Positions 1-17,065 of a DNA stretch of 64,000 bases are shown here, one piece after another (positions within the stretch are counted from its first letter, which is position 1; each line of letters begins with the position of its first letter). Made by a program: the position numbers and the translations under genes. The notes beneath the pieces were generated by a model. The model was not told where the DNA came from and did not search any database. It worked only from the letters and a program-made list of their open reading frames with translations. This DNA comes from Soonwooa buanensis. Its GTDB lineage: Bacteria; Bacteroidota; Bacteroidia; Flavobacteriales; Weeksellaceae. The stretch is taken from NCBI RefSeq assembly GCF_900167905.1, contig NZ_FUYZ01000002.1:372001-436000 (forward strand), in the 5' to 3' direction.

Positions 1-699
1 TCGGGAAAGCGAATCTTGGTGCACGGTGGCGGAAAGTTGACCAGTACTTTGGCAGAAAAACTTCATGTGCCGCAACAGATGGTCGACGGTCGACGTGTAA
101 CCGATGCGCAAACTTTAGACATTGCAACGATGGTGTATGCTGGCAAAATCAACAAAAGTATTGTTGCAAAACTTCAGAATTTAGATTGCGATGCAATGGG
201 ATTTACAGGAGCGGATGCCAATTTAATTCAAGCTGAAAAACGCAGTGTCGAAGAGATCGATTTCGGATTTGTTGGCGATGTCAATCGTAAAAGTGTGAAT
301 TCGAAACTAATTCGTAAGTTTTTAAAATTAGATTTAATTCCTGTTTTCTCTGCAATTACGCACGATCATCACGGCGATTTACTTAATACGAATGCCGATT
401 CTATCGCTTCAGTTTTAGCACAAGCTTTATCAAAAAAATTCGATGTCGAATTACTATTTTGTTTTGATAAAGATGGCGTTTTAGAAGATGTTAATGACAA
501 TTCAACTTTGATAGAAGCGCTTTCCGAAGATGATGTTTTAAAACTTAAAGAAGAAAAAAAAATCCATAAAGGCATTCTCCCTAAAATCGAAAATGCTTTG
601 CTCGCCAAGAAAAACGGCGTACAAAAGATTTTTTTAATTAACGAAACCAAATTACAAGAACATATAATTTATGATAACCAAGGAACTGAAATCTGTTAA
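1..699 (+). CDS. argB: Acetylglutamate kinase (N-terminus outside window)
   Basis: Amino-acid kinase family enzyme of arginine synthesis. It phosphorylates N-acetylglutamate, or possibly N-succinylglutamate, which some Bacteroidetes use. The reading frame is open from base 1 and enters at the LVHGGGK phosphate-binding glycine loop, so roughly 25-30 N-terminal residues lie upstream of the window. A start at base 16 would cut off the nucleotide-binding beta strand and is not the real one. The GVLEDVND and KGILPKIENAL segments match the usual C-terminal part. The stop overlaps the next gene by 29 bp, which indicates translational coupling with the deacetylase. Acetyl versus succinyl substrate cannot be told from sequence alone. 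Confidence 0.93.
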   Translation, partial: SGKRILVHGGGKLTSTLAEKLHVPQQMVDGRRVTDAQTLDIATMVYAGKINKSIVAKLQNLDCDAMGFTGADANLIQAEKRSVEEIDFGFVGDVNRKSVNSKLIRKFLKLDLIPVFSAITHDHHGDLLNTNADSIASVLAQALSKKFDVELLFCFDKDGVLEDVNDNSTLIEALSEDDVLKLKEEKKIHKGILPKIENALLAKKNGVQKIFLINETKLQEHIIYDNQGTEIC

Positions 700-1759
700 C
701 CATATCGACGAGCTACTCGACAACGCGACCAAACTCTTAAAAAAGATGATCGCGACGCCTTCGCTTAGCAAGGAAGAGTACGACGTATCGTTGGTGATAG
801 AAAGTTTTTTTAAAGAAAAAGGCGTAGCAATTAACCGCTACAAAAATAATATATGGGCAACCAACAAAAATTTTGATGCTTCCAAACCTTCAATTTTGTT
901 AAATACCCACCACGACACGGTTAAGCCCAACAAAGCTTACACGATGGATCCTTTTATCCCAGTCGAAAAAGACGGAAAAATCTTTGGATTGGGAAGTAAC
1001 GACGCAGGCGCGTCTTTGGTGGCGATGTCTCAAGTTTTTCTTCATTTTTATGAAAAAGAAAACTTGTCTCACAACTTGATTATTGCACTAACAGCAGAAG
1101 AAGAAATCTCTGGCGTTGACGGTATCGAAGCTTTGTTTCCTCAACTTCCAAACGTAGAATTGGCGATTGTTGGCGAACCTACAAAAATGAATTTAGCGAT
1201 TGCCGAAAAAGGACTTTTGGTGATTGATGGCGAAATGCAAGGCACAGCGTCTCATGCAGCGCATCCTAACAATGACAACGCGATTGTGAAATGCATGGCA
1301 GATTTGCAACATATCTTAAACTACAAATTCGAGAAAACTTCAGAATATCTTGGCGATGTCAAAGTCACGCTAACGGTGATTAATGCAGGGACGCAGCACA
1401 ATGTAGTGCCAGAAAAATGCAATTTCACGTTGGATGTTCGTGTGACCGATGAGTACAGCAACAAAGAGGTTTTCGACATCATCCAATCCGAAATGAAATC
1501 CACGCTTACACCGCGTTCGTTTAGACTTAATTCCTCAAAAATCGAAATTGCGCATCCTTTTGTGCAGGCTGGTTTGGCGCTTGGCAGGACGACTTACGGT
1601 TCGCCGACTTCGTCCGATCAGGCGATTATTCCGTGCACTTCGGTCAAGATGGGCCCGGGCGACAGTTTGCGTTCGCATACGGCGGATGAGTTTATCTACA
1701 TTGCCGAAATCAAGGACGGAATCGAAATTTACATCAATATTTTAGAACAGGTTTTATAG
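671..1759 (+). CDS. argE: M20 family deacetylase, acetylornithine deacetylase-like
   Basis: Zinc-dependent M20 peptidase-fold amidohydrolase of 362 residues, expected to remove the acyl group from N-acyl-ornithine or N-acyl-citrulline and close the linear arginine pathway. Visible metal-site motifs: NTHHDTV (H80, D82), GSNDAGAS (bridging D111), the TAEEE glutamate pair at 143-145, GEPTKM near 190 and a C-terminal SHTADEF. The dimerisation domain lies between about residues 170 and 280. It starts inside the end of argB and is followed after a 320-bp gap by argH, so context supports arginine synthesis over a general dipeptidase. The actual acyl substrate is inferred. Confidence 0.85.
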   Translation: MITKELKSVNHIDELLDNATKLLKKMIATPSLSKEEYDVSLVIESFFKEKGVAINRYKNNIWATNKNFDASKPSILLNTHHDTVKPNKAYTMDPFIPVEKDGKIFGLGSNDAGASLVAMSQVFLHFYEKENLSHNLIIALTAEEEISGVDGIEALFPQLPNVELAIVGEPTKMNLAIAEKGLLVIDGEMQGTASHAAHPNNDNAIVKCMADLQHILNYKFEKTSEYLGDVKVTLTVINAGTQHNVVPEKCNFTLDVRVTDEYSNKEVFDIIQSEMKSTLTPRSFRLNSSKIEIAHPFVQAGLALGRTTYGSPTSSDQAIIPCTSVKMGPGDSLRSHTADEFIYIAEIKDGIEIYINILEQVL

Positions 1760-1766
1760 TTTTTTT

Positions 1767-1876
1767 ATTTGGGCAGCTATTTCTATCCTCCGCTCCCGCT
1801 TTTTTGTTATTGCAATCCTCGTTCCTCGAAATTGCAAAAACAAAAAGAGCTCCGCTCAGGCTGGGCTGCGACTACT
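1767..1876 (+). repeat. Class A interspersed element, copy 1
   Basis: Opens with ATTTGGGCAGC directly after a T-tract just past the argE stop. It continues with a CTCCGCTCCCGCTTTTTTG block, a small central hairpin (TTGCAAT paired with ATTGCAA), then AAAAAGAGCTCCGCTCAGG and GGGCTGCGACTAC. The two conserved blocks recur in four other gaps of this window (38.36, 40.65, 45.50 and 55.68 kb). The rest of the gap to 2079 is AT-rich and carries degenerate heptamer-like text (GATTTACGA, CCGACAACAGTCAACC) and a short TTTCGA/TCGAAA inverted repeat before argH. I see no gene in it. Confidence 0.75.
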
Positions 1877-2079
1877 AACTGGTTTTAGGAATTTTGATTT
1901 TAGATTTACGAATTTTTGACTTACGATTTTCAGTTCGTCATTTCGAGTAGCCTAGCGAATCGAAAAATATTATGATTTACGATTTATCATTTTGACGAAA
2001 GAGAAATCTTTGTTCACAAATAACCGACAACAGTCAACCAAAAACCATCAACTAAAAACCTATTAATTTAAGAAACAAA

Positions 2080-3384
2080 ATGAAAAAAATTTGGCAGAAA
2101 GACCAATCCAAAACAGACGATTTAGTCAACAAATTTACTGTTGGTAAGGATTTGGATTTTGATGACCGTTTAGCAAAATACGACGTCATCGGCTCGATGG
2201 CGCACTGCAAAATGTTAGCAGAAGTTGGTTTGATTTCTTATGAAGAATCAACGGCGATGCTAAAGGTTTTAGATTCTATTTTAGAAGACATTAATGCTGG
2301 TAATTTCGAAATCGATAAGTCAGCAGAGGATATACATTCCCAAGTGGAAGCGATTTTAATAGAAAAATTAGGCGACACAGGAAAGAAAATTCACACCGCA
2401 AGATCACGTAACGATCAAGTTTTGTTGGACATCAAATTATATTTGCAACAAGAGATTCGCGAGATTTCTGCTTTGGTGGATACCTTGTTCCAAACTTTGA
2501 TTTCGTTAGCAGAACAACATCAAAAGGTGTTAGTGCCGGGTTATACGCATTTTCAAATTGCGATGCCTTCGTCTTTTGGATTGTGGTTTGGCGCTTATGC
2601 AGAATCGCTTTTAGATGATGTAGAATTGTTGTTGTCGGTTAAGAATATCATTAACAAAAATCCGTTGGGTTCAGCAGCAGGTTATGGTTCGTCATTCCCG
2701 ATTGATAGAGCAAGTACAACTTCCAAATTAGGTTTTATTTCCATGAATCATAATTCGGTTTATGCACAAATGACACGCGGAAAATCGGAGAAATTATTAG
2801 CGTCCGCTTTGTCAGTTTTAGCAGGAACTTTAAGCAAATTCAGTTATGATGTTTGTTTATATTTAAGTCAAAATTTTGATTTTATTAGCTTTCCAAAAGA
2901 GTTTACGACAGGTAGTAGCATTATGCCACACAAGAAAAATCCTGATATTTTTGAGTTGGTAAGAGCGCGTTGCAATCGTATACAATCGCTTCCGAATGAG
3001 TTGATTTTGTTGACTAATAATTTGCCGTCGGGTTATCATCGTGATATGCAGTTGACAAAAGAAATTTTGTTCCCAGCAATCGATTCTTTAAAGGAATGTT
3101 TAGAAATTCTTAATTACACGCTTCCAAATATCCAAGTTAAAGACGGGATTTTAGAAGATGAAAAATACAAATATCTTTTCAGTGTTGAGAAGATTAATGA
3201 AGAAGTAAAAGCTGGTGCGTCTTTCCGAGATGCTTATGTAAGTGTCGGGAATGCCATTGAAAATCAAGAATTCGATTACGATATCAAAGATCTCCAACAC
3301 AGCCACCAAGGCAGTATCGGAAATCTTTGTTTAGATGAAGTTGCGCACCAATTCCATAAGATTGCTACGAAACTTCAAGCTTAG
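2080..3384 (+). CDS. argH: Argininosuccinate lyase
   Basis: Fumarase/aspartase superfamily lyase that splits argininosuccinate into arginine and fumarate, the last step of arginine synthesis. 434 residues, close to the family norm of about 430-460. Visible: HTARSRNDQV near residue 105, the GYTHFQIAMP segment near 155, and the superfamily signature GSSIMPHKKNPD at about residue 278 carrying the catalytic serine loop. Start ATG follows an A-rich leader without a Shine-Dalgarno. Its last 4 bases overlap the end of the convergent lrp gene, with no terminator between them. Same strand as argB and argE, but separated from them by a class A element. Confidence 0.96.
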   Translation: MKKIWQKDQSKTDDLVNKFTVGKDLDFDDRLAKYDVIGSMAHCKMLAEVGLISYEESTAMLKVLDSILEDINAGNFEIDKSAEDIHSQVEAILIEKLGDTGKKIHTARSRNDQVLLDIKLYLQQEIREISALVDTLFQTLISLAEQHQKVLVPGYTHFQIAMPSSFGLWFGAYAESLLDDVELLLSVKNIINKNPLGSAAGYGSSFPIDRASTTSKLGFISMNHNSVYAQMTRGKSEKLLASALSVLAGTLSKFSYDVCLYLSQNFDFISFPKEFTTGSSIMPHKKNPDIFELVRARCNRIQSLPNELILLTNNLPSGYHRDMQLTKEILFPAIDSLKECLEILNYTLPNIQVKDGILEDEKYKYLFSVEKINEEVKAGASFRDAYVSVGNAIENQEFDYDIKDLQHSHQGSIGNLCLDEVAHQFHKIATKLQA

Positions 3385-3836
3385 TCAAGTTTGAAAGTAG
3401 TAGTTTTCTTTACTTCATGCAGTACAATAGAACTGTGATACAAGCCGATATTCGGTGAATTTGATATGACATTAACAGCGAAGTCGTTGTAAGAGTTGAT
3501 GTCTTTTGCGATAATTTTTAACATATAGTCGTACTCACCAGAAAGACTCGTGATTTCTTGCACTTCATCGAATTTTTCGATGTGTTCTTCAAAGGCTTCC
3601 AAAGCTTTTTTGGATTGTTCTTTCAGTCGAATGTTGCAATAGACGATGATGTTGAGACCGAGCTTTTCGCGGTTAAGTAGAGCAACATATTTTTCGATGA
3701 CTTTTTGTTTTTCGAGTTGCTTGATACGCTCGTAAGTTGGCGTGAAGGTAAGTCCAATCCTCTCCGAGATTTCTTTCACTGATAATGTAGAATCTTGTTG
3801 AAGAATACTTAGAATCATTCTGTCTTTAGCATCCAT
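3381..3836 (-). CDS. Lrp/AsnC family transcriptional regulator
   Basis: 151-residue feast/famine regulator with an N-terminal winged helix-turn-helix (residues about 4-60, DRMILSILQQDSTLSVKEIS and RIGLTFTPTYERIKQLE) and a C-terminal RAM/AsnC ligand-binding alpha-beta domain (about 65-150, ending in the SGEYDYMLKI core). Lrp/AsnC proteins bind amino acids and repress or activate metabolic genes. It converges on argH with a 4-bp overlap of stop codons and sits 120 bp from the divergent pyrB leader promoter, so arginine or pyrimidine genes are plausible targets; this is inference. A TATTTTTG -7 box lies about 15 bp before its ATG on the minus strand. Confidence 0.92.
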   Translation of the reverse strand: MDAKDRMILSILQQDSTLSVKEISERIGLTFTPTYERIKQLEKQKVIEKYVALLNREKLGLNIIVYCNIRLKEQSKKALEAFEEHIEKFDEVQEITSLSGEYDYMLKIIAKDINSYNDFAVNVISNSPNIGLYHSSIVLHEVKKTTTFKLD

Positions 3837-3920
3837 GATTTATGATTTTTAACAAAAATATAAAAATTGTTAAGAAAAACAACGAGATGATAAAAAATGT
3901 TAAAAAGTCTAAAAAATATT

Positions 3921-3950
3921 TTTGAGAATTAATAGAAAAGTCTATCTTTG
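3921..3950 (+). promoter_or_regulatory. Promoter of the pyrB leader
   Basis: Bacteroidetes-type promoter: TTTG at 3921-3924 and a perfect -7 box TATCTTTG at 3943-3950, 18 bp apart. The leader ATG begins 6 nt after the box, so the transcript is predicted to start at or within a few bases of that ATG. Confidence 0.65.
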
Positions 3951-3956
3951 CAGTTA

Positions 3957-4025
3957 ATGAAAAAAGCATTATTGATATCATTAGATTTACCGGGCGTAAG
4001 CGCTCTTTACGATATTTTTAATTAA
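3957..4025 (+). CDS. Candidate pyrB leader peptide, 22 aa
   Basis: A short ORF, ATG at 3957 and TAA at 4023-4025. It encodes a leucine-rich peptide that begins MKKALLISLDLPG and ends YDIFN (5 Leu in 22 residues). It begins just after a strong -7 box, and its stop codon overlaps the first bases of a terminator hairpin. That geometry is what coupled transcription-translation attenuation requires, as in enterobacterial pyrL-pyrBI, where low UTP slows RNA polymerase so that the ribosome blocks the terminator. The peptide itself has no recognised family. It could instead be a chance ORF, but position and spacing argue for a leader. Confidence 0.55.
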   Translation: MKKALLISLDLPGVSALYDIFN

Positions 4026-4054
4026 AAGCGAGGATTGTTGTCCTCGCTTTTTTT
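4024..4054 (+). terminator. Intrinsic terminator/attenuator upstream of pyrB
   Basis: Arms AAAAGCGAGGA (4024-4034) and TCCTCGCTTTT (4041-4051) pair over 11 bp around a 6-nt loop and run into seven T residues (4048-4054). It lies between the leader ORF and pyrB, 22 bp before the pyrB ATG. A ribosome finishing the leader at 4025 would cover the left arm. Confidence 0.75.
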
Positions 4055-4076
4055 GTGCTCAAAACTCAAAATAAAG

Positions 4077-4967
4077 ATGTTTAATATTACACAACTTAGC
4101 CAAGAAAAGATTAACAAGATTATCCAAGATGCCTTGGAAATCGCAGGTGGGAAAAGCTTCAAAGCCAAGCAAGATATTTTTGTATCGAATTTGTTTTTTG
4201 AAGATAGTACAAGAACGAAAACTAGTTTTGACATCGCAGAGCGAAAGTTAGGACTTAAAGTAGTTCCGTTTGATGCGTCGCACAGTTCGGTTAACAAAGG
4301 CGAAAGTCTTTACGACACTGTCAAGACAATCGAAAGTTTGGGCGTTAACTTGGTGGTGATTCGTCACAAACAAGATCGCTTTTATGAAGATTTAAAAAAT
4401 ATCAACATTCCGATTATCAACGCAGGCGACGGAACGGGAAATCATCCATCGCAATGCATGTTGGATTTGGTGACAATTTTCCAAGAATTTGGAAAATTTG
4501 AAGGCCTTAAAGTTGGGATTGTTGGTGATGTTAAACACAGTAGAGTAGCCAACTCCAACGCCGAAGCTCTGCGGAAATTAGGAGCAAAAGTTTACTTCTC
4601 AGGACCATCAAAATGGTTTGATGAAGGCGCTATTATTAACGGAACTTTCTTAGCTTTTAATGAATTAGTAAAAGAAGTTGATGTGTTAATATTGTTGAGA
4701 ATTCAACACGAAAGACATGAAAATAAACATGGATTTTCGGCAGAAGAATATCACAAAAAATATGGTTTAACCAAAGAACGTGAAAAATTAATGAAACCAA
4801 ACGCCATCATCATGCATCCAGCGCCAATTAACAGAGGTGTTGAGATTGATACAGATTTGGTAGAATGCGAACGTTCGAGGATTTTTAAACAAATGGAAAA
4901 CGGCGTTTACGCAAGAATGGCAATTCTAAAAGACGCTTTGGAACAAAAAGGATTTGAGTTTGAATAA
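4077..4967 (+). CDS. pyrB: Aspartate carbamoyltransferase catalytic chain
   Basis: Catalyses carbamoyl phosphate + aspartate to carbamoyl aspartate, the first committed pyrimidine step. 296 residues from ATG 4077, a normal length. A TTG at 4035 would extend the ORF but lies inside the terminator hairpin and adds non-family residues. Seen: carbamoyl-phosphate loop STRTKTSF (from S44), HPSQ (H123) and [10 protein letters not shown] (H247), which fit ATCase rather than ornithine or N-acylornithine carbamoyltransferase. No pyrI regulatory chain is adjacent, so it is probably a stand-alone trimer, regulated at the leader. carA and carB downstream supply its carbamoyl phosphate. Confidence 0.94.
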
Positions 4968-5113
4968 AAGACAATAAGATTTGAGATTTCAGATATCAGA
5001 CAAATAAAGTCTAAAATCTGATGTCTAATGCTTAATGTTTAAAAAATAGAAAAGACAATAAGATATGAGATTTCAGATATCAGACAAATAAAGTCTAAAA
5101 TCTGATGTCTAAT
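4966..5113. repeat. Two direct copies of a 64-bp sequence between pyrB and carA
   Basis: Copy 1 at 4966-5029 and copy 2 at 5050-5113 differ at one base (T4981 versus A5065), with 20 bp between them. Each holds a weak internal inverted repeat (AGATATCAGAC against GTCTAAAATCT). The first copy begins inside the pyrB stop codon. No ORF. It fills the pyrB-carA spacer. Confidence 0.85.
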
Positions 5114-5134
5114 ATCTAACATCTAATAAATAAA

Positions 5135-6217
5135 ATGAAAAAGAAATTAATATTAGAATCGGGTGAAGTATTCCACGGAACGGGTTTCGGAGCCAATTTG
5201 GATACCGATGGAGAAGTGGTTTTCAACACAGGAATGACAGGTTATCAAGAGTTGATTTCTGACCCATCGTACTGCGGACAAATCGTTTGTATGACGTATC
5301 CGTTAATCGGAAATTACGGAATCAACCGCGATGATTATGAAAGTATCGAACCTGCAATTAAAGGTTTAATTGTTAAAGAAGTTTGCGATTTACCATCGAA
5401 TTTCAGAACACAAATGGATTTGGATGAGTTTTTCCAAAAGAAAAATTTAAGCGGAATTGCTGGAATAGACACCAGAAAACTAACAAGAATTCTTCGTAAC
5501 AAAGGTGTTGTAAAAGGAAAGATTGTTAACGCTGATGCTGATGAAGCTGCAGTAATTTCCGAATTAAAAGGAACAAACTTCCCAACCAACCAAGTGGAAA
5601 TGGTTTCTACAAAAACACCTTACGCTGCTCCAGGAAGAGGATTGAAAGTTGTTTTGGTAGATTTCGGTTCTAAATTGGGAATTATCCGTGAGCTTTCTCA
5701 AAGAGATTGCGACATCACGGTGGTTTCTCAGGATACAACAGCGGAAGAAATTCTTTTGATGGATCCAGACGGCGTGATGCTTTCTAACGGTCCTGGTGAT
5801 CCAGAAGATGTTCCTCATGCGTTGGAAATGATTCGCGGAATTTTGGGAAAAGTTCCAATTTTCGGAATCTGTTTAGGACATCAATTAATTGCTTTGGCTT
5901 GTGGCGCGAAAACTTTTAAATTAAAATTCGGACACAGAGGTGGAAATCATCCAGTTTTAGATTTGGAAAAAAATATGGTGGCGATAACTTCTCAAAATCA
6001 TGGTTACGCAGTTGACCAAGATTCTTTGAAAAATACAGATTTAATAGAAACGCACATTGCTCTTAACGACAGAACCAACGAAGGTGTTAAACACAAAATC
6101 CACCCTTGTTTCTCTGTACAATATCATCCAGAAGCAAGTCCAGGTCCAGAAGACGCGAATTATTTGTTTGATGAGTTTATTGAGTTGATGTATCAATATA
6201 AAAATGTAACAGTTTAA
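5135..6217 (+). CDS. carA: Carbamoyl-phosphate synthase small (glutaminase) chain
   Basis: Hydrolyses glutamine and channels ammonia to CarB. 360 residues. N-terminal CPSase small-chain domain (about 1-135, with LISDPSYCGQIVCMTYPLIGNYG) and C-terminal class I glutamine amidotransferase domain (about 170-355). The nucleophile elbow GICLGHQ places Cys at 246; the partner His331 and Glu333 lie in YHPEASPGPED. Product serves both pyrimidine (PyrB next door) and arginine synthesis (argBEH nearby). Its partner carB is displaced 619 bp downstream by a transposase gene that begins 2 bp after the carA stop. Confidence 0.96.
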   Translation: MKKKLILESGEVFHGTGFGANLDTDGEVVFNTGMTGYQELISDPSYCGQIVCMTYPLIGNYGINRDDYESIEPAIKGLIVKEVCDLPSNFRTQMDLDEFFQKKNLSGIAGIDTRKLTRILRNKGVVKGKIVNADADEAAVISELKGTNFPTNQVEMVSTKTPYAAPGRGLKVVLVDFGSKLGIIRELSQRDCDITVVSQDTTAEEILLMDPDGVMLSNGPGDPEDVPHALEMIRGILGKVPIFGICLGHQLIALACGAKTFKLKFGHRGGNHPVLDLEKNMVAITSQNHGYAVDQDSLKNTDLIETHIALNDRTNEGVKHKIHPCFSVQYHPEASPGPEDANYLFDEFIELMYQYKNVTV

Positions 6218-6219
6218 TA

Positions 6220-6666
6220 ATGTCAACATTCCGACAAATATATTATCAAATCGTATTTAGCACAAAGCACAGAAAACCTGCTTTGGATATTGAACACGAG
6301 GAGGAACTTTACAAATATATCTGGGGAATTTTGAAAAATAATAACTGTAAACTTTATCGTATTAATGGAATGCCAGACCACATTCATATTTTCACCGACT
6401 TACATCCGTCAATTGCGCTAAGTGATTTGGTTCGAGATATTAAAGTTGCAAGTAATTTATGGATGAAACAAAGTGGTTTGTTTCCAGAATTTGAAGAATG
6501 GCAAAGCGGATATGGTGCTTTTACTTATTCTGAAAATGAGAAAGATGCGGTAATAAATTATATTAAAAATCAGAAAACTCATCATCAAAAAGAAAATTTT
6601 GAAACTGAATATAAAAATCTTTTAAAGGATAATGGGATTGAATTTGATGATAAATTTTTGTGGTAA
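6220..6666 (+). CDS. REP-associated / IS200-like Y1 (HUH) transposase
   Basis: 148-residue single-domain HUH endonuclease of the Y1 transposase superfamily. The HUH motif is PDHIHIF (H54, H56) and the likely catalytic tyrosine is Y114 in VINYIKNQ with Q118. The N-terminus QIYYQIVFSTKHRKP and the motif GYGAFTYS resemble the RAYT (REP-associated tyrosine transposase) branch rather than IS605 proper: there is no TnpB and no recognisable left-end hairpin before it. It starts 2 bp after the carA stop, so it is probably co-transcribed. All catalytic residues look intact. The row of hairpins directly downstream fits a resident REP/RAYT unit. Confidence 0.87.
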   Translation: MSTFRQIYYQIVFSTKHRKPALDIEHEEELYKYIWGILKNNNCKLYRINGMPDHIHIFTDLHPSIALSDLVRDIKVASNLWMKQSGLFPEFEEWQSGYGAFTYSENEKDAVINYIKNQKTHHQKENFETEYKNLLKDNGIEFDDKFLW

Positions 6667-6671
6667 AATTT

Positions 6672-6820
6672 GCCATAGGTAAAAACCTAAGGCTATTAAA
6701 ATTCAGCCGCTTCGCGGCTGCCCACGATGTCAAAGGCGAGCCACGAAGTGGCTCAACAACAATAGCCATGGATGAAATTCATGGAAATTTAACAACAATA
6801 ACCACGAACCAATCCGTGGT
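6672..6820. repeat. Row of five short hairpins next to the RAYT gene
   Basis: Successive inverted repeats: GCCATAGGT/ACCTAAGGC (6672-6693, one mismatch); CAGCCGC-TTC-GCGGCTG (6704-6720, perfect); GAGCCAC-GAA-GTGGCTC (6738-6754, perfect); CCATG/CATGG (6766-6784); ACCACG/CGTGGT (6801-6820). The last two are each preceded by the same spacer, AACAACAATA(G/A)CCA. This resembles the REP hairpins that RAYT proteins bind and process, placed between carA and carB. Confidence 0.7.
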
Positions 6821-6835
6821 CATAAAAAGAAAAAA

Positions 6836-9800
6836 ATGAAAAGAAACGACATAAAAACCATCCTAGTTATCGGTTCCGGTCCCATCATCATCGGTCAGGC
6901 TGCCGAATTCGATTATGCGGGAACTCAGGCTTGTCTTTCCTTGAAGGAAGAGGGCTACAAAGTTATTTTGATCAACTCCAATCCGGCGACGATTATGACG
7001 GATGTGGAAATCGCAGATAAAGTGTATATCGAGCCGATTTCGCTTCAATTTGTGAGTCATATCATCAGAAAAGAGCGTCCAGATGCGCTTCTTCCGACTT
7101 TGGGAGGACAAACTGGACTGAATATGGCGGTTGAATTAGAAAAATCTGGAATTCTTGAAGAATGCAAAGTTGAAGTTCTTGGAACAAAGCTTTCTGCGAT
7201 TAACAGAGCGGAAGACAGAGATTTGTTCCGTGAATTGATGCGAGAATTAAATGAGCCAGTTCCAGATTCGGATATTGTACACACAGTTGAAGAATCGGTG
7301 GCTTTTGCGAATAGAATCGGTTATCCTGTTATCGTTCGTCCAGCCTTTACAATGGGTGGAACAGGCGGTGGAATCGCTTCAAACGAAACAGAATTAAGAG
7401 AAATTTCCGAGTTAGGACTTAAATATTCTCCAGTAACACAATGTCTGATTGAAAAATCAATCGCTGGTTATAAAGAGATTGAATACGAAGTAATGCGTGA
7501 TGCCAACGACAATGCGATTGTGGTTTGTAACATGGAAAACATAGACCCTGTGGGCGTTCATACGGGAGATTCCATTGTTGTGGCGCCTTCTCAGACACTT
7601 TCGGATAGAGAATATCAGTTGTTGAGAAATGCTTCATTAAAAATCATCAGAGCCTTAGGAATTGAAGGTGGTTGCAACGTTCAGTTGGCTTTAGACCCGC
7701 ATTCATTCAATTATTATATCATCGAAGTAAATCCAAGAGTTTCTCGTTCATCGGCTTTGGCATCGAAAGCGACAGGTTATCCGATTGCGAAAATCGCTGC
7801 GAAAATTGCAGTTGGTTTAACACTTGACGAAATCATGAATCCAGTTACAGGAACATCTTACGCTTGTTTCGAGCCTGCTTTAGATTATGTCGTAACGAAG
7901 TTCCCAAGATTCCCATTCGATAAGTTTGAAACAGCTGATAGAAGACTTTCAACACAAATGAAAGCAACGGGCGAAGTAATGGCAATCGGAAGAAATTTCG
8001 AGGAATCTTTACAAAAAGCGATTCGTTCTTTGGAAACAGGAATTCGTCATATCGGACTTAAAACCAAACAAGCAGAAGCTTTAACAGCGGAAGAAATCGA
8101 AAGAAGAATCCGAGTTTGTGATGATGAAAGATTATTCATCATTGGTGATGCTTTGCGAAGAGGTTACGATTGGGAAACGATTGTAGAATGGAGTAAAATT
8201 GATAAATTCTTTATTTGGAAAATCAAAAAACTAATCGATTTTGAAACCACAATTAAAGAAAATAAATTCAATAAAGATATTTTACTTGAAGCCAAAAAAT
8301 TAGGTTTCGCAGACTTAAATATCGCTCATCTTTGGGGAGTTACACAACGTGAAATTTTCGATTTCAGAAAAGAAAACGGAATTATGCCAGTTTACAAAAT
8401 GGTGGACACTTGCGCAGCAGAATTTGAGTCGGAGACGCCTTATTTCTACGGAACTTACGAAGACGAAAACGAAAGTGTAGTTTCAGACAAAAAGAAAATT
8501 ATCGTTTTGGGTTCTGGGCCAATACGTATCGGCCAAGGTGTGGAATTCGATTATGCGACGGTGCATTCGGTTTGGGCGATTAAAGAAATGGGTTACGAGG
8601 CGATTATCATCAACAACAATCCAGAAACGGTTTCTACAGACTTCTCAATTTCGGATAAGCTTTATTTCGAACCTTTAACGGAAGAAGATGTGATGAACAT
8701 CATCGAACTTGAAAAACCAACAGGAGTTGTGGTACAATTTGGTGGTCAAACGGCGATTAATTTAGCTGATAAATTGGCTGCTCACGGTGTACAAATTTTA
8801 GGAACAACACTTGAAGACATCGACAGAGCCGAAAACAGAGATAAATTTGAAAAAGCGCTTCAAGACTTACAAATTCCGCAACCTTTAGGAAAAACTTCGA
8901 CTTCAAAAGAAGAAGCAATTGTGATTGCAAACGAAATTGGATATCCAGTTTTGGTGCGTCCGAGCTACGTTTTGGGAGGTCGTGCGATGGAAATCGTTTA
9001 CAACGAAACCGAGTTGGCGCATTATATGGAAAACGCGGTGGAAGCGAGTCCAGAGCACCCAGTTTTGGTCGATCGATATTTAACAGGAAAAGAAGTTGAA
9101 GTTGATGCAATTTGCGACGGCGAAACGGTGATTATTCCAGGAATTATGGAGCATATCGAAAGAGCGGGAGTTCACTCAGGAGACTCGATTGCGGTGTATC
9201 CTCCACAAAATTTGAATCAAAAACAAATCGATACTTTAGTTGATTATACTCAAAGATTGGCAAAAGGTTTGAAAATCGTCGGATTGATGAACATTCAGTA
9301 CGTTATTTCGGACGGCGAAGTTTATGTCATCGAAGTGAATCCACGTTCATCGAGAACAGTTCCTTTCTTGTCTAAAATTACGGATGTTCCGATGGCAAAA
9401 TTGGCTACCAAAGCAGTTTTAGGAGCGAAACTAACCGATTTAGGATTTAAAAATGGTTTGGTTCCAAATAAAGAAGGCGTTTTCGTGAAAGTTCCAGTTT
9501 TCTCTTTCTCAAAATTAACGAAAGTGGACATCTCTTTAGGCCCAGAAATGAAGTCGACAGGAGAAGTAATGGGTAAAGATTCTACACTCGAAAAAGCTTT
9601 GTACAAAGGATTAATCGCGGCGGGAAGAAAAGTTCCGACGCACGGTTCTATTTTGTTTACAGTTGCTGATAACGATAAAAAAGAAGCCGTGGAATTGGCA
9701 AGAAGATTTAACGATGTAGGTTTCAGAATTTGGGCAACCGAAGGAACTGCAAAATTCTTCGAAGAGCACGGCGTTCCAACGAAAATCGGTTACAAAATCG

Positions 9801-10015
9801 GAGAAGAAGACGTTAACTTGATTGATTTAATTCAAAAAGGAAAAGTTCAATATGTTGTAAACACGACTACCAAAGGAAAACAAGCCGAAAGAGACGGTTT
9901 CCAAATCCGTAGAATGAGCGTTGAAAACGGCGTTCCTTGTTTAACATCAATGGATACTGTAGAAGCCATTTTGAAGGTTATCGAAAGCATGAGTTTTAAA
10001 ATGTTGGCGATGTAA
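6836..10015 (+). CDS. carB: Carbamoyl-phosphate synthase large chain
   Basis: Makes carbamoyl phosphate from bicarbonate, ammonia and 2 ATP. 1059 residues, standard length. Two homologous synthase halves, each with an ATP-grasp domain: the first opens at [22 protein letters not shown], the second near residue 555 at [20 protein letters not shown]. The oligomerisation region lies between (about 400-550). A C-terminal MGS-like allosteric domain (about 930-1059, [21 protein letters not shown]) binds UMP or ornithine in relatives. carA is upstream but separated by the RAYT gene and its hairpins. Two strong hairpins follow the stop. Confidence 0.97.
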
Positions 10016-10028
10016 AATAAAAAACTTA

Positions 10029-10061
10029 AACCCTTTCAGAGTTCTAAACTCTGAAAGGGTT
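10029..10061. terminator. Hairpin downstream of carB
   Basis: Perfect 15-bp stem (10029-10043 with 10047-10061) around a 3-nt loop, core CCCTTTCAGAG/CTCTGAAAGGG, 14 bp past the carB stop. The following run is T-poor, so it may act as a transcript-stabilising end or as part of a tandem terminator with the next hairpin. Confidence 0.65.
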
Positions 10062-10071
10062 ATTTAAAATT

Positions 10072-10105
10072 AAAGCCTCACAGAAAAATCTGTGAGGCTT
10101 TTTTG
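10072..10105 (+). terminator. Intrinsic terminator of the car operon
   Basis: Arms AAAGCCTCACAGA (10072-10084) and TCTGTGAGGCTTT (10089-10101), 4-nt loop, then TTTGTTTT. The A-rich left flank makes it work in both directions, so it also serves the convergent serine hydrolase gene. Confidence 0.85.
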
Positions 10106-10124
10106 TTTTAATAAAAATAACAAT

Positions 10125-11447
10125 TTATTCTTTCATAAAATTAAATTCACCGCCGCCTTGTTTTAATGTCATTTTCTTTTCAGTTGGTTTAAATTCTAAA
10201 ACGACACCAACTTTATCAAATCTAAAAACATCTTTTTCGGAAGCATCTAACGGAAAAGCATTTTGTCCCGTTGCCTGCGCCATCAGAACATTATCTTTAA
10301 CCGAAATTGTGATTTTTAAAGGGATTTGCGGCGAAGAATATGTCCCAATATATTGATTGAGTTCTTCAGGTTTTACTTGATAAATTTTAAAATTTGGAAT
10401 CTCAAAATCTTTATTGTAAACCGCACTCAGAACAGCAATTGCAATATTATTATTGTTATAATTGGATGCGTTTGACGTTAATGCAAATGACACGTCATCT
10501 TGATCAAAATGTGTGAAACTACTTGTGAAACCATCTATTCCACCAGTATGTCCATAGCCTTTGAAATCATAAAAAGGAAACTGGAAAAGTCCATTTCCAA
10601 TACCATCTTTAATTGTTTTCATGAAATCTAAATCTTTTTCAGAAACCAATTTTCCGCCAAAAAGTGCATTGCTAAACGCAACCAAATCCGAAGGCGTCGA
10701 TTCTATTCCGCCAGCGCCTAAAGGAATCGACATGTCAGTTTCTGCTTCCTCTTTCCATTCGTTATTTTTTGGTAAATATGATTTTGCTTCGTTATTTTTA
10801 GGATTTATTTTACCACCGAAATAGGTGTTTTTTAAGTTTAAAGGCGTCGTAATATATTCTTTTAACAATGCAGAATAATCTTTTTTGAAAACTTTTTGCA
10901 AAATAAATGAAAGCAAAACAAAGTTAGAATTGCTATAAGAAGTCTTCGTATCTGGCTCGAAATCACTGCCATTTTTCGCAATAATTTCTAACAAATCTTT
11001 CTCGGTTTTTGCTTGTGTGTTCCACTCATAATAGCTGTTGCCATCAGTAAAATTGAAAATTCCACTTCTATGATTTAACAACATCTGAATCGTAATTTTT
11101 TCGGCATTAATGATATTTGGATAAAACTTGCTGAGCTTGTCATTAAGATTTAATTTATTCTTATCAATAGCTTTGAGAACGAGAACGGTGGTGAATGTTT
11201 TAGAAATCGATCCAATGCGATATTTGGTGTTTTCGTTCGTTTTTTGCTTGGTTGCGACATCAGCAAAACCGATTGTTTTGGTGTAAATTAACTTTCCGTT
11301 TTTAGAAAGTGCGACGCTTCCCATGAATTTGTTATTCGTTTCTAAATTCTCAAAATATTGATTAAGTTTTTCAGAATTAAAACTTTGAGAAAAAATACTT
11401 GTCGACGCTACAAGCGACACAAGCGTGATGATGTGTTTGTTTTTCAT
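10125..11447 (-). CDS. Exported serine hydrolase, beta-lactamase (class C)/PBP4* family
   Basis: 440-residue secreted protein with a signal peptide (KNKHIITLVSLVASTSIFSQ). Serine beta-lactamase fold (PF00144-type): SISK tetrad S80-K83, YSN at 171-173 and the KTG-equivalent HTGG at 300-303. A C-terminal extension of about 100 residues (from about 345) forms a small beta-rich domain common in these hydrolases. Substrate is unknown: D-amino-acid peptides, esters or cell-wall peptides are all possible, and resistance to beta-lactams should not be assumed. It overlaps the upstream membrane gene by 4 bp (ATGA), so it belongs to the PadR-controlled operon. Confidence 0.85.
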   Translation of the reverse strand: MKNKHIITLVSLVASTSIFSQSFNSEKLNQYFENLETNNKFMGSVALSKNGKLIYTKTIGFADVATKQKTNENTKYRIGSISKTFTTVLVLKAIDKNKLNLNDKLSKFYPNIINAEKITIQMLLNHRSGIFNFTDGNSYYEWNTQAKTEKDLLEIIAKNGSDFEPDTKTSYSNSNFVLLSFILQKVFKKDYSALLKEYITTPLNLKNTYFGGKINPKNNEAKSYLPKNNEWKEEAETDMSIPLGAGGIESTPSDLVAFSNALFGGKLVSEKDLDFMKTIKDGIGNGLFQFPFYDFKGYGHTGGIDGFTSSFTHFDQDDVSFALTSNASNYNNNNIAIAVLSAVYNKDFEIPNFKIYQVKPEELNQYIGTYSSPQIPLKITISVKDNVLMAQATGQNAFPLDASEKDVFRFDKVGVVLEFKPTEKKMTLKQGGGEFNFMKE

Positions 11448-12052
11448 CTTAATTTGATGTTTATGGTCTTTTTTAATCTTAATAATAAAGTGATGATGAC
11501 AAATGAAATGACGGTCAAAACAATCATAACAGGTATGAATAAATTGCCTAATTGTTCGTATTGACCGTAATTTTCAGTAGACGAACTTATCTTTCCTAAA
11601 ACAAAAATATCTCTTGCATTATAGAAGAATCCAACGTTTTCGGGATCAAATATTTTAGCGAAAATTAAAAATATAAATGCGAATAATAACAGATATAAAA
11701 TGAAGAACAAAACATACGAAAATCCGTTGCCTAGATTAAGAATTAAAGCTTTTAAAATCTTAATAGGATTAAATGTTTTCGTTGATTCTTCAAGTTTTTT
11801 TTGAGCCACCAATTCTTTAAGAAAGACTTCTGGTTGTCCGATTTTTTCTAAAATATTTAGAAGTTTTTCAACATCATTTGTTTCAGAATTATCGTTTTGG
11901 AAACTCTCAAAAATATGACTGTTAACTTCCATTAAAATCTCTTCTCTATTATTTGAGGCGAGTATTTTTGTTGTATTCTGAATGCGCAAAATGTAATCTT
12001 TGTAGATTCTTTTCGCATTGCTATCGGCGAATTCTATTTCTTTAAATTTCAT
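11444..12052 (-). CDS. HAAS/DUF1700-like membrane protein
   Basis: 202 residues. A soluble helical N-terminal half (about 1-80, with YKDYILRIQNTTKIL and REEILMEVNSHIFESF) resembles the HAAS/DUF1700 signalling domain that is regularly coupled to PadR regulators. The second half carries two membrane spans at about 105-130 and 172-195, with a short loop between. It starts 1 bp after the padR stop and overlaps the serine hydrolase start by 4 bp, so translation is coupled across the three genes. In other phyla such PadR-HAAS pairs accompany membrane-stress outputs; the ligand here is unknown. Confidence 0.7.
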   Translation of the reverse strand: MKFKEIEFADSNAKRIYKDYILRIQNTTKILASNNREEILMEVNSHIFESFQNDNSETNDVEKLLNILEKIGQPEVFLKELVAQKKLEESTKTFNPIKILKALILNLGNGFSYVLFFILYLLLFAFIFLIFAKIFDPENVGFFYNARDIFVLGKISSSTENYGQYEQLGNLFIPVMIVLTVISFVIITLLLRLKKTINIKLR

Positions 12053-12053
12053 A

Positions 12054-12386
12054 TTAAATTTTTTCGATGGTGTTGTTCAGTTGTGTCCAGTATGATTTCA
12101 TTTCTTGAATGGTGTTTTTTCCAAGATTTGTTATTTCATAATACTTTCGCGGAATTCCAGATTCTTGTTCTATCCAAACTGCAGTCACTAAATTTTCGGT
12201 TTTTAAACGATTTAGCAAAGGATACAAAGTTCCTTCAGCAATATCTGTTTCCGTTTGCTTTTTGATTTCGTTGATTAAATCATAGCCGTAATATTGCTTT
12301 CCGTCTTTTAAAACAGAGAGAACCAAAAACGACAACGTCCCTTTTTTGAGTTGAGAAATCCACTTGTTGATAAATTCTTCATTCAT
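12054..12386 (-). CDS. PadR family transcriptional regulator
   Basis: 110-residue winged-helix repressor. It shows the PadR core KGTLSFLVLSVLKDGKQYYGYDLI, the recognition segment EGTLYPLLNRLKTENLV and the wing RKYYEITNLGK, then a C-terminal dimerisation helix (about 85-110). First gene of a three-gene operon with the HAAS-like membrane protein and the serine hydrolase. A long perfect inverted repeat with the PadR-type ATACAT/ATGTAT core overlaps its own -7 box, so autorepression is expected. The -7 box ends 4 bp before ATG, predicting a leaderless message. Confidence 0.92.
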   Translation of the reverse strand: MNEEFINKWISQLKKGTLSFLVLSVLKDGKQYYGYDLINEIKKQTETDIAEGTLYPLLNRLKTENLVTAVWIEQESGIPRKYYEITNLGKNTIQEMKSYWTQLNNTIEKI

Positions 12387-12390
12387 GTTT

Positions 12391-12435
12391 CAAATATAAA
12401 ACAAAATACATTGTTATACTATGTATTTTGTTTTA
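12391..12435 (-). promoter_or_regulatory. padR promoter with palindromic operator
   Basis: On the minus strand, TATATTTG (12398 to 12391) is a perfect -7 box ending 4 nt before the padR ATG. A perfect 15-bp inverted repeat (12397-12411 and 12421-12435, core AAAACAAAATACAT) around a 9-bp spacer overlaps the first bases of that box. The ATACAT/ATGTAT heart matches known PadR sites. No good -33 box is visible, as expected if the site is occluded. Confidence 0.7.
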
Positions 12436-12470
12436 ATTTTTAAATTCATCTTTCTTGATTAAAATAAAAA

Positions 12471-12495
12471 AGCCCTCGTAGAAGTCTACAAGAGC
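12471..12495 (-). terminator. Terminator of ada
   Basis: Read on the minus strand: GCTCTTGTAG, 4-5 nt loop, CTACGAGGGC, then TTTTTT. The two mismatches on the plus strand become G-U pairs on the minus strand, so it is oriented for ada. The 95 bp between it and the ada stop hold nothing recognisable. Confidence 0.65.
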
Positions 12496-12590
12496 AATTT
12501 TTATGTTTAATATTTTTTAATGATCATGTCAATTCGCCTAGATATTAGTAAGTTTAATGTTGCTAATTGAAAACGATTGCTTGTTTAGGT

Positions 12591-13634
12591 TTAAAAAAGA
12601 ATCGCTTTTTCGAGTTCTAATAATTTTTGTTTGCGCCAGATGCCGCCGCCGTAACCTGTTAGTTTTCCGTTGCTTCCGATAACGCGATGGCAAGGTATGA
12701 TAATCGAAATCTTATTAAGACCGTTAGCATTTGCAACTGCGCGAACGCCTTTTGGATTTCCTAAAATATTGGCTTGTTCCTGATAACTTCTCGTTGTGCC
12801 ATAAGGAATCGTCCGAAGAACTTCCCAAACTTGCTTCTGAAAATCTGTTCCGACTGGCGATAAAGACACCGAAAAATCTGTTCTTTTGCCTTCGAAATAT
12901 TCCTTAAGTTCTTTTTCTAAAGTTACAAAATGTGGATTTTCACCTTGGATAATATTCGCATCAAAATGTTTAGAAATTTGTTTTAATTCTGTTGGTAAAG
13001 CTTTACGATCAGAAAATTCTAACATGCAAATTCCGTTGCTATCCGCACAAGCAATCATTGTCCCAATCGGGGTTTCGATGCGTTTTAGGTCAATTACTTT
13101 TTCCATTTTGGATTGTGTTGGTGACATACCAAATACATTTTTGAAACTTTCATTAAAACCACTCAGACTTTCGTAACCAGAATCCATCGCCGTTTCGATA
13201 AGGTTTTCGCCTTGTTGTAATTTTTTGAAAGCCGAATTTATTTTAAACATTCTTTGGAAAGCATGGAAGGTCATCCCGTGGTGTTTTAGAAACCAACGTC
13301 GCACATTAGCAGGTTCCAAACCTCGCTTCACCAGATCATAATCTTTAAATTTACGACTTGGATCATTCGATAATTCGTCCAAGAGTTTTTGAATTTCCGT
13401 TGGCGTTTGATCTGGATTTTCCAAAGGTTTGCAAACTTTACAAGGTCGATAACCTTTTAAAATCGGATCTTTAGTATTATCAAAAAATTCAACATTCTCA
13501 ATTTTTGGTTTTCGTGCTGTACAAGTTGGACGACAAAAAATCCCTGTCGTTTTAACCGCCATCCAAAAAACGCCTTCAAAATCAGGGTTTTTATCACAAG
13601 AGGCTTGATACATTATCTCGTTGGAAAGTTTCAT
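12591..13634 (-). CDS. ada: Bifunctional Ada: DNA methyltransferase and AraC-type regulator
   Basis: 347 residues with all three Ada modules. The N-terminal Zn domain has Cys34, Cys38, Cys65 and Cys68 (FCRPTCTA, RPCKVCK), where one cysteine takes methyl groups from phosphotriesters. An AraC-type helix-turn-helix follows (about 85-165, FHAFQRMFKINSAFKKLQ). The C-terminal MGMT domain has IIPCHRVIG (acceptor Cys315), repairing O6-methylguanine. Methylated Ada normally activates its own gene and other alkylation-repair genes. Single gene with its own terminator; a TAATTTTG -7 box lies about 10 bp before the ATG. Confidence 0.95.
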   Translation of the reverse strand: MKLSNEIMYQASCDKNPDFEGVFWMAVKTTGIFCRPTCTARKPKIENVEFFDNTKDPILKGYRPCKVCKPLENPDQTPTEIQKLLDELSNDPSRKFKDYDLVKRGLEPANVRRWFLKHHGMTFHAFQRMFKINSAFKKLQQGENLIETAMDSGYESLSGFNESFKNVFGMSPTQSKMEKVIDLKRIETPIGTMIACADSNGICMLEFSDRKALPTELKQISKHFDANIIQGENPHFVTLEKELKEYFEGKRTDFSVSLSPVGTDFQKQVWEVLRTIPYGTTRSYQEQANILGNPKGVRAVANANGLNKISIIIPCHRVIGSNGKLTGYGGGIWRKQKLLELEKAILF

Positions 13635-13698
13635 TTTTTTATTTCAAAATTAAAACAGAACCTACTTTAATTACAACCGAAAAATGAACAAGTATTTT

Positions 13699-15603
13699 TT
13701 ATTCGGTTTTGGCTTTCCATTTTCTAAGGACTTTCGTAAAAAAGAAAATAAAAATAAAACCTATAATTAATAATGAAAAACTTGTTATATCCATTCCTAA
13801 TATTTCTAAAATACCATCACAATTGTAAGCTTCAAACTTATTTTTAGGCAGCGCACGACAAGCATCAATTTGATGTCTACTGGTAATTCCTAGTATAAGT
13901 AAGACTAAAGGGACAAAAGTATTAAGACTGATATTAACTGCAATCGAGTTTATAAATTTTGAAAAAGTTTGATTAATACTGACAAACAAAATAGATAATC
14001 CGGTTATGAAAAACGTATACATAACAAAATACTCGACAAAATTACCTCCTACTGTAAAATTCACAATAAAGCTCAAAAGTGCGATAAATAACGACAAAAC
14101 ACCAGTTGTAATAATCGCAAATAATAAAGCTCGTAATCCCGTTACACGGAAACTTAAAATAATGGTCGCCAAACAAAATGAAATCCATAGAAACAAATGA
14201 ATGTATTCCATAAAGAAGTCTTTATTTTTTATCGTATCGACATTTTCTAAAAGCTGTTTTAGGTGATCCGAGTAAAAATAGTAATTGCCTAATCTTTTTT
14301 CAAAGAACTTTTCTGGTGACAATTGTTTATTAACTTCAGGATTAAAATCTTTGAGACTTACCGCTGCATCGACCACCTTGCCATCGTGCACAACTGCCGC
14401 CGCTGCAACATCAACATCAGCTGCTGCATCAACCGCAGCTTCTGTAGCCGCCGCCACTGCATAATCATTACCAGTATACCTGTATGGATCGTAGATATCA
14501 TTTCGTTCTGGTTTGTATTTTTTAGTAAAATTAGAAACCTCAAAATTATCAGGATAAAATACTAAATCAGTTAAAGTTTTGGCACCAAGATTCGTTTGTA
14601 TTTTATATTTTTTTGCAAGTTCAAAAAAAGCATCGAACTGCTTTTCAAAATTTTGTTTGTTTTTAGTGTTTAATAAATCGGCAACTGCTTTATTAACTTT
14701 AGCTCGTTTTTGTTGTTGCGTTTCTGATACTTGAGATTCGGTATCGTCAACTATAGTGCCTTCATAATAAGGTGCAAAACTTTCTCCACCTTGATCATAA
14801 AAAATTGAGGAATAGTTATAAAAACTTGGCGCAGTGGTCGGAATATACGATGACAAGTCCACAACATTCTTTTTGAAATAGAAAATCTTTTTATCTCTTT
14901 CAGTTTTCGTGTAAGCAATTCTTGTCCCGTTGCTTGCTTCTGGTTCAGGTATTAGATATTCGTCATCACTATTTTTTTTAGTGCTAATTTTAGGATAAAC
15001 CTCAAAATATTGATAAACTCTGTCATAGTTGACAAAATATTTTTTATCTCTTTCAATTTTTTGAATATCTGTTTCGCAATACAAATCAAAAAAAGGTTTT
15101 GGATAAAGTCGATTTCCTAAAGTGAAGTCTTCATAATTCTGTGCCAGAAAAGGATAAGTTGTATTAATCAACTCAATATTTTTAGACATTTCTTTATCTG
15201 GATAAAGTCGATTAATATTGAGTTTATCCGCAAACATATACGACATATAAAAACTCGTACAGCTAAAAATAATCACAAAATATTGTACAAATTGAAAGAA
15301 CAATTTGGTGCTCGAGACTGGATAAAAATTTTTGAATGCATTATTCTTAAACATATTAATAAGCCAGCCTACCAACAGTAAAACCGAAATTATTAAATGA
15401 ATAAAAATAATACCATTCGTAAAATAATCGTCTACTGCACGACTTTTTTGTAAGGTCTCGGGATCGCTGTGCGCGAAAAATCCGATGCCAAAAAATATAA
15501 GATGAAATAAGAATGCTAAAGCCAACATCCAGACGATTTTGGTATTCCAAATTGTTGGATAACGCTCTAGTAAATATTGATTGATGCGAGAAATTTTGTT
15601 CAT
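13699..15603 (-). CDS. ABC-2-like membrane protein with large soluble domain
   Basis: 634 residues. Three predicted spans near the N-terminus (about 25-47, 68-88, 103-125), a soluble domain of about 330 residues, then five spans (about 460-480, 490-515, 525-545, 552-575, 605-625). It begins 21 bp after the ABC ATPase gene, so it is probably its membrane partner. A strikingly low-complexity Ala/Val/Asp stretch (about residues 382-415, with AVAAATEAAVDAAADVD) sits near the end of the soluble domain and is more GC-rich than its surroundings. I do not recognise a named family; substrate is unknown. Confidence 0.65.
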   Translation of the reverse strand: MNKISRINQYLLERYPTIWNTKIVWMLALAFLFHLIFFGIGFFAHSDPETLQKSRAVDDYFTNGIIFIHLIISVLLLVGWLINMFKNNAFKNFYPVSSTKLFFQFVQYFVIIFSCTSFYMSYMFADKLNINRLYPDKEMSKNIELINTTYPFLAQNYEDFTLGNRLYPKPFFDLYCETDIQKIERDKKYFVNYDRVYQYFEVYPKISTKKNSDDEYLIPEPEASNGTRIAYTKTERDKKIFYFKKNVVDLSSYIPTTAPSFYNYSSIFYDQGGESFAPYYEGTIVDDTESQVSETQQQKRAKVNKAVADLLNTKNKQNFEKQFDAFFELAKKYKIQTNLGAKTLTDLVFYPDNFEVSNFTKKYKPERNDIYDPYRYTGNDYAVAAATEAAVDAAADVDVAAAAVVHDGKVVDAAVSLKDFNPEVNKQLSPEKFFEKRLGNYYFYSDHLKQLLENVDTIKNKDFFMEYIHLFLWISFCLATIILSFRVTGLRALLFAIITTGVLSLFIALLSFIVNFTVGGNFVEYFVMYTFFITGLSILFVSINQTFSKFINSIAVNISLNTFVPLVLLILGITSRHQIDACRALPKNKFEAYNCDGILEILGMDITSFSLLIIGFIFIFFFTKVLRKWKAKTE

Positions 15604-15624
15604 TTTGATAAATCTTAAACTACA

Positions 15625-16779: not shown

Positions 16780-17065
16780 AAATGATCATTAAGATGTTTT
16801 AAAGATAATATTTTAAACGAAGAAATAGACAGAATTTACATTAAGATTCTTGTATATTATTTATAACAAAGAAATTATTTAATTCATAAAAAAACAATTG
16901 TTAATTTAATAAATAATCAAAAGTCTGATTAAAAATACATTAATTAAAAATATCTCTGTTTGCAATAGTTGATAAAATATAAACACCTAAAATATATCAT
17001 ATTATTTTTAAATATATTATTTAGTTTATTATATAATTTTGCTGAATTGATAATAATAAACAAAT
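16780..17065. other. AT-rich intergenic region with divergent promoters
   Basis: A 286-bp gap of very high AT content between divergent genes. On the plus strand TAATTTTG at 17034-17041 is a perfect -7 box 24 bp before the ATG at 17066. On the minus strand TATCTTTA lies shortly upstream of the ABC ATPase. No ORF or stable hairpin is visible. Confidence 0.55.

Follow-up and report, generated by a model that had tools for sequence, protein, structure and literature searches.

Upstream of pyrB in Soonwooa buanensis, a member of the Weeksellaceae, we find a short leader that is best explained as a pyrL-type, UTP-sensing, translation-coupled attenuator 5′ of pyrB-carA-carB, which would work like E. 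coli pyrL. Judging from the sequences compared, we put the probability of this reading at about 0.82. The leader layout recurs in almost every sampled genus of the family that carries pyrB, and sequence comparison shows selection acting on the open frame and not on the leader peptide.

The system is apparently convergent with that of the enterobacteria and evolved on its own, an independent origin being suggested by the lack of sequence homology and of a Shine-Dalgarno start together with the PyrR-type arrangement of neighbouring families. We think it somewhat better than an even chance that a family devoid of PyrR independently evolved the pyrL solution, in which a race between polymerase and ribosome reads UTP, with a leaderless AUG and a stop on the terminator arm. 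If so, leaderless initiation would serve as a timing device, transcription and translation would be tightly coupled in Bacteroidota, and a textbook regulatory logic would have a second origin in a distant phylum. It would also point to a way in which flavobacteria lacking PyrR regulate pyrimidine synthesis, and the leader could serve as a natural reporter of whether ribosomes trail close behind polymerase in Bacteroidota. The initial annotation of this DNA knew of no described case in Bacteroidetes; likewise, among the matches listed in the full-text literature, from which subscription journals are mostly absent, we found no description of a pyrB leader attenuator in Bacteroidetes, Flavobacteria, or Weeksellaceae. 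Portions of one report on B. thetaiotaomicron describe 5′ UTRs containing small ORFs (PMC7366714).

The leader locus upstream of pyrB

The window, that is, the whole stretch of 64,000 nucleotides that was analyzed, carries on its plus strand a TTTG element (3921–3924) and the box TATCTTTG (3943–3950), which correspond to the −33/−7 promoter consensus TTTG/TAnnTTTG given in passages of two reports (PMC6847099, PMC7366714). For F. psychrophilum, the TAnnTTTG box has been located at −12 to −5 in part of a further report (PMC9723704); for F. johnsoniae, a G at −5 is described, and candidates with a box-to-start spacing of 4–5 nt were accepted as promoters (PMC6847099, in part). From this published spacing, the transcription start is predicted on the plus strand at 3955–3956, 1–2 nt 5′ of the leader AUG, which implies a 5′ UTR of 1–2 nt. 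The ATG lies 6 nt past the −7 box (3957–3959) and opens a plus-strand leader ORF of 22 codons and a TAA (MKKALLISLDLPGVSALYDIFN; 3957–4025, stop at 4023–4025), the frame of which is conserved open among divergent leaders. The leader would begin at this near-leaderless AUG, which is presumably used in translation, and the near-leaderless leader mRNA that the initial annotation had envisaged fits the promoter geometry in the portions of both reports cited (PMC9723704, PMC6847099). Leaderless mRNAs are a minority in Flavobacteriales, at 5.5% in F. psychrophilum according to part of the same work (PMC9723704).

Within the ORF, and on the same strand, a hairpin of sequence GGGCG-TAAG-CGCTC (3992–4005; −4.9 kcal/mol) is a candidate RNA polymerase pause hairpin, and a U-rich tract (4006–4022) occupies the interval between this hairpin and the terminator. 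The intrinsic terminator, the predicted attenuator, follows on the plus strand at 4024–4054, with its stem-loop at 4024–4051 and seven T at 4048–4054. The TAnnTTTG promoter, the ATG 6 nt later, and the 22-codon ORF had all been claimed before and are present in the window, as are a leader TAA overlapping the left arm (4023–4025 against a stem from 4024) and a pyrB ATG behind the terminator (4077). The terminator had been described as an 11-bp GC-rich hairpin with seven T; hairpin and T run stand, but the stem has 12 pairs, of which only 5 are G-C.

Three plus-strand genes follow: pyrB, encoding the aspartate carbamoyltransferase catalytic subunit (4077–4967; NF002032, 360.1 bits, cut-off 263), carA, encoding the carbamoyl-phosphate synthase small subunit (5135–6217), and carB, encoding the large subunit (6836–10015), the last gene of a presumed pyrB-carA-carB operon that is probably co-transcribed as one unit. 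Two AT-rich repeats of 84 bases, arranged in tandem and with 89% identity, take up the gap between pyrB and carA (4966–5133), and an IS200/IS605-type transposase gene lies between carA and carB (6220–6666; NF033573, 75 bits, cut-off 55). Upstream of the leader, the window holds argB, an argE/dapE-like gene, and argH. A gene for an Lrp/AsnC-like regulator, with scores below curated cut-offs, shares the intergenic region with the leader on the minus strand (3381–3836); as it is divergent, the terminator at 4024–4054 is not the end of that gene. A second layer of control by this regulator at the pyrB leader is possible.

Statistics on the single site were not decisive. Terminator-like sites in window positions 1–20000 numbered 16 against 14.5 (sd 3.9) in shuffles, so that in this AT-rich stretch a single site is not significant, and the leader folded with z = −2.15, 5 of 200 shuffles being equally good. 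The reality of the element is therefore settled by conservation, not by these figures. An Rfam scan of the window gave no match at gathering threshold at the pyrB leader, and none anywhere in the window for the PyrR-binding RNA motif. The sole gathering-level family was Flavo-1, a motif of unclear function, matched at 35964–36073 (51.9 bits) and 42969–43063 (64.9 bits). Weaker matches at the leader, below threshold (best E 0.006; L20_leader with 24.3 bits against a gathering threshold of 58.7), were set aside as chance.

Distribution of the leader and of PyrR

Alongside the window, we examined the best 80 Chryseobacterium pyrB loci. All 81 upstreams have the promoter box, the 6-nt spacing, and the ATG, and in 79 the ORF stop falls within −3 to +1 nt of GCGA in the terminator left arm; the other two ORFs extend further. 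As Chryseobacterium leaders are near-identical in sequence, these counts carry little independent weight. A wider Weeksellaceae sample comprised 120 genomes, 89 of them with pyrB, from 26 of 33 genera, and 69 upstreams (L083–L151) were fetched from it. Together with the window, 68 of these 70 upstreams, from 25 genera, show the layout of TAnnTTTG, 5–7 nt, ATG, ORF, and terminator, the distance from box to ATG being 5–7 nt in every one of the 68. The two unparsed upstreams (L150, L151) belong to genus g17 and stand outside the leader counts. Among the 26 pyrB-carrying genera in the sample, g17 alone departs from the layout, with a longer leader that reads through the terminator; in the other 25, the layout is found ahead of pyrB. 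Outside Chryseobacterium, the arrangement is kept despite widely differing leader sequence, and at L116 the leader is shifted upstream by extra sequence behind the terminator. The initial annotation had tied its case to conservation of the short ORF and of its spacing to the hairpin. Across 25 genera, the ORF is kept, as are the distance at which it starts from the promoter box and its extension up to the terminator, and stops are avoided in the ATG frame. The annotation had also named a start downstream of the hairpin as a point that would count against it; as judged from sequence, just 2 of the 68 loci, the window not among them, have a TAHHTTTG box in the interval from terminator to pyrB.

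Setting aside leaders with more than 60% peptide identity within a genus left 39 divergent leaders from the 25 genera, of which L100 and L146 share one genome and L134 was parsed by hand. In the family alignment, 5 of the 9 pairs in the consensus terminator stem are changed on both sides. A covariance model built from the 39 leader sequences gave a match no more than 110 nt ahead of pyrB in 79 family genomes out of the 89 that carry this gene, and 41 of the 79 had contributed no sequence to the model; the ten without a match were nine from g17 and one with a partial pyrB match (residues 177–296). Within the S. buanensis genome, the pyrB leader scored 84 bits and the next match 36, leaving the pyrB leader alone as convincing. 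A pattern search of the same genome for further near-leaderless leaders returned 38 matches, against 22 with the reversed pattern, under a gap limit that missed the pyrB leader itself. None of 20 carA/carB upstreams was matched by the model, and its extra matches elsewhere (L271 and L272, two of four in genus g24; L274–L280) were judged to be chance or ordinary gene-end terminators. One genome, G012, holds two pyrB-carA copies (C11, C42), with pyrB 65% and 78% identical to that of the window and each with its own leader, which reflects either duplication or a mixed assembly.

Variant arrangements were found in two genera. At eight of the nine g17 loci, an open frame contains a TTG 143–163 nt 5′ of an AT-rich terminator, L150 with two candidates, and these frames read through the terminator to end −21 to +23 nt relative to the pyrB ATG; from the open frames, we read the TTG as the putative leader start. 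No terminator was found at pyrB of the ninth locus (G041). The separate carA of that genome (L358) does have one, preceded by a 43-codon ORF that starts 52 nt after a TATCTTTG box and stops 6 nt before the stem CATCTT, with no covariance-model match. Genome G051, of genus g2, has a further near-leaderless ORF, 31 codons long, that runs through a terminator and stops 46 nt before carB (L273), possibly the switch in a second copy; in five other g2 genomes, carB has no leader of this type. These single cases suggest that the switch travels with pyr and car genes.

PyrR was sought in 43 genomes, 26 of them Weeksellaceae, 21 with pyrB and 5 with no match to it, and 17 belonging to other Flavobacteriales families. 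It was above cut-off in none of the Weeksellaceae genomes and in 16 of the 17 others; the best match in S. buanensis itself reached 31.5 bits against a cut-off of 138. In all 16 PyrR-positive genomes, pyrR lies just 5′ of pyrB, and the lone exception is also without a pyrB match. Across order, class, and phylum, we examined 70 loci outside the family, five genomes being represented twice. A PyrR-like ORF lies immediately 5′ of pyrB in 53 of them, and the scan of the 300 nt directly before pyrB found a near-leaderless ATG preceding a terminator at none of the 70. The contrast that the initial annotation drew between UTP sensing at enterobacterial pyrBI and PyrR in Gram-positives needs one correction: PyrR is not confined to Gram-positives, pyrR just 5′ of pyrB being usual in the other Flavobacteriales families sampled. 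Genomes G009, G021, G028, and others of g10, g22, and g29 have carA and carB of ~43–54% identity and no pyrB match at E 1e-40, perhaps because they encode an arginine-only carbamoyl-phosphate synthase or a divergent pyrB; PyrR was not above cut-off in the three genomes named. A survey of RNA-motif regulons covers, in the portions available, the PyrR motif and Bacteroidaceae, with nothing there on Weeksellaceae (PMC3766115).

The open frame, the U-rich tract, and rival explanations

Read from the ATG, 38 of the 39 divergent leaders meet no stop until 14 nt or less from the left arm; the +1 frame is open that far in 2 and the +2 frame in 11. Dinucleotide shuffles predict 10.6 open frames, about the level of the +2 frame, and the binomial P for 38 of 39 is ~9e-21 if rows are taken as independent; with one leader per genus, the counts are 24, 2, and 7 of 25 for frames 0, +1, and +2. 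Among all 68 leaders, the stop ends −6 to 0 nt from CGA of the left arm in 56, past the arm in 10, and earlier in 2, and the L116 ORF stops 16 nt short of the arm. The peptide, meanwhile, drifts. Over 14 independent pairs, leader codons 2–11 carry 6 synonymous and 31 non-synonymous changes, against 933 and 142 in pyrB of the same pairs, in a test confined to those codons. Substitutions there are flat across codon positions (14, 20, 15), and a count over all pairs gave 13.5% synonymous changes against 19.8% expected without selection. With the frame open and the peptide drifting, the property that is kept is readability up to the terminator, and the ribosome-coupled, pyrL-analogous control first proposed for this locus gains support from the openness of the frame and the position of the stop.

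Each of the 39 leaders also has a predicted local hairpin inside the ORF, ending 17–28 nt 5′ of the arm in 37. Since RNAalifold, run on an alignment that is loose in this region, returned no internal hairpin, it was tested leader by leader: against dinucleotide shuffles, the mean z was −2.38, with 20 of 39 in the best 5% and stem pairs that vary in type, and 8 of 39 hairpins were weaker than −3 kcal/mol, down to −1.1. The first UUU comes a median of 10 nt past the hairpin (38 leaders with UUU). The U fraction is 0.55 in the 17 nt beside the arm and 0.28 in the remainder of the ORF, with the rise present in every one of the 39 leaders, and at the 15 other terminator-like sites in the window the mean adjoining U is 0.36; the tract may partly reflect AT-rich composition. 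Across the set, these tests show candidate hairpin and U tract to be properties of the leaders as a group. In the 39 leaders, the left arm pairs with upstream sequence no better than chance would give (mean z −0.17, 3 leaders falling in the best 5%).

In the mechanism we propose, RNA polymerase would start 0–2 nt before the leader AUG, so that a ribosome could load at the 5′ end once the RNA emerges. Polymerase would make the small hairpin and, ~10 nt on, have to add a run of U. At low UTP, it would hesitate at that run while the ribosome catches up, reaches the stop codon on the terminator left arm, and covers the arm; the terminator could then not fold, and pyrB-carA-carB would be transcribed. 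With plentiful UTP, polymerase would outrun the ribosome, the hairpin would form, and transcription would stop before pyrB. That transcription does terminate here, that the AUG is used, that UTP is the signal, and that ribosome and polymerase are timed as described is what we infer from this arrangement. Least secure is the part that the internal hairpin would play, given that the mapped E. coli pyrL pause, in the relevant part of one study, was not NusA-dependent and was called weakly structured (PMC9291695).

The open frame and stop position point to coupling itself, whereas UTP as the signal would rest on the U tract and the genes controlled. A ribosome-coupled attenuator could instead respond to general translation capacity, another nucleotide, or growth state, and E. 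coli pyrL is less U-enriched just before its terminator than the Weeksellaceae leaders, so a U tract alone is not diagnostic. We nevertheless consider such a signal rather improbable: the bias next to the terminator is toward U and not merely toward A+T (36 of 39 leaders have more U than A there), the first UUU follows the hairpin closely, as given above, and pyrB and carAB lead to UMP. Control of the terminator by a protein or ligand, PyrR-like or a riboswitch, with the ORF incidental, would accord with the PyrR-like ORF just 5′ of pyrB at those 53 of 70 loci outside the family, but PyrR is below cut-off in all 26 family genomes tested, the window leader has no gathering-level Rfam match, antiterminator pairing does not exceed chance, and the openness of the frame would go unexplained, which together make it very unlikely.

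Classical amino-acid attenuation, with stalling at specific codons such as those for arginine, might be expected from carAB in the operon also feeding arginine and from the arg genes upstream in the window, and leader-peptide attenuation has been suggested upstream of F. psychrophilum amino-acid operons in part of one report (PMC9723704). Asn, Ile, Phe, and Tyr codons do recur at leader ends, an effect of the U tract. Only 6 of 39 leaders, however, have at least two Arg codons, Arg makes up 3.4% of residues, no single residue is repeated in all leaders, codons 2–11 drift, and no alternative structure was found, so we give this explanation very little credence. Least credible of all is a functional small protein, a nascent-peptide arrest sequence, or a short RNA with its own terminator. 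The Chryseobacterium peptide is nearly constant (FISL[DE]LPG..ALYDIY) and a loose F.LDDL-like stretch recurs in several genera, but the Chryseobacterium constancy extends to a nearly fixed nucleotide sequence and ends at the genus, and the excess of non-synonymous over synonymous changes in codons 2–11 (31 against 6), spread flatly over codon positions, does not reveal the selection on the peptide that arrest would entail.

Comparison with known attenuation systems

PyrR-controlled pyr operons have an intrinsic terminator ahead of the pyr genes. The leader described here shares that terminator, but the genome has neither PyrR above cut-off nor, in the window, a PyrR RNA motif. Amino-acid leader attenuation of the his/trp type, as suggested for F. 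psychrophilum in part of one report (PMC9723704), likewise combines a short ORF with a terminator in Flavobacteriales; unlike that type, the Weeksellaceae leaders have no common regulatory codon run and no mutually exclusive antiterminator.

In E. coli, according to passages of two reports (PMC10135430; also PMC5021804), polymerase runs ahead and terminates in pyrL when UTP is abundant, and when UTP is scarce it pauses on a U-rich template and the coupled ribosome blocks the terminator. At pyrBI, transcription initiation also involves UTP-dependent slippage (PMC6245113, in part), for which the Weeksellaceae leaders seem ill suited, with 1 of 68 having a UUU within 11 nt counted from the AUG and without the initial U run of E. 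coli pyrL. They are about half the length of E. coli pyrL, and they are near-leaderless and start without a Shine-Dalgarno sequence, whereas E. coli has GGAG before the ATG. Their stop is usually on the terminator rather than past it, and carA and carB follow pyrB in the window where pyrI does in E. coli. The g17 leaders, which are not near-leaderless, come nearer to the E. coli shape. With the E. coli stem picked by hand, the hairpin starts 32 nt after the ATG, compared with 34–47 nt in 34 of 39 Weeksellaceae leaders, and the distance from hairpin to U run is 10 nt, equal to the Weeksellaceae median; from hairpin to terminator, it is 38 nt against 17–28 nt in 37 of 39. The U fraction in E. 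coli pyrL is 0.37 in the tract from hairpin to terminator against 0.32 ahead of that tract, and 0.29 in the last 17 nt, so enrichment is stronger in Weeksellaceae.

What the two share is a leader ORF, a terminator within its reach, and pyrB next. In 38 of 39 leaders, the ORF stays open as far as, or beyond, an intrinsic terminator that immediately precedes pyrB; a U-rich stretch and a predicted pause hairpin come before that terminator, and neither a competing antiterminator nor a set of regulatory codons was found. By inspection of the leader sequences, no homology to E. coli pyrL is seen, and given this and the start without a Shine-Dalgarno sequence, we do not file the element in the enterobacterial family; on the pyrL-type reading, it would nonetheless work like pyrL.
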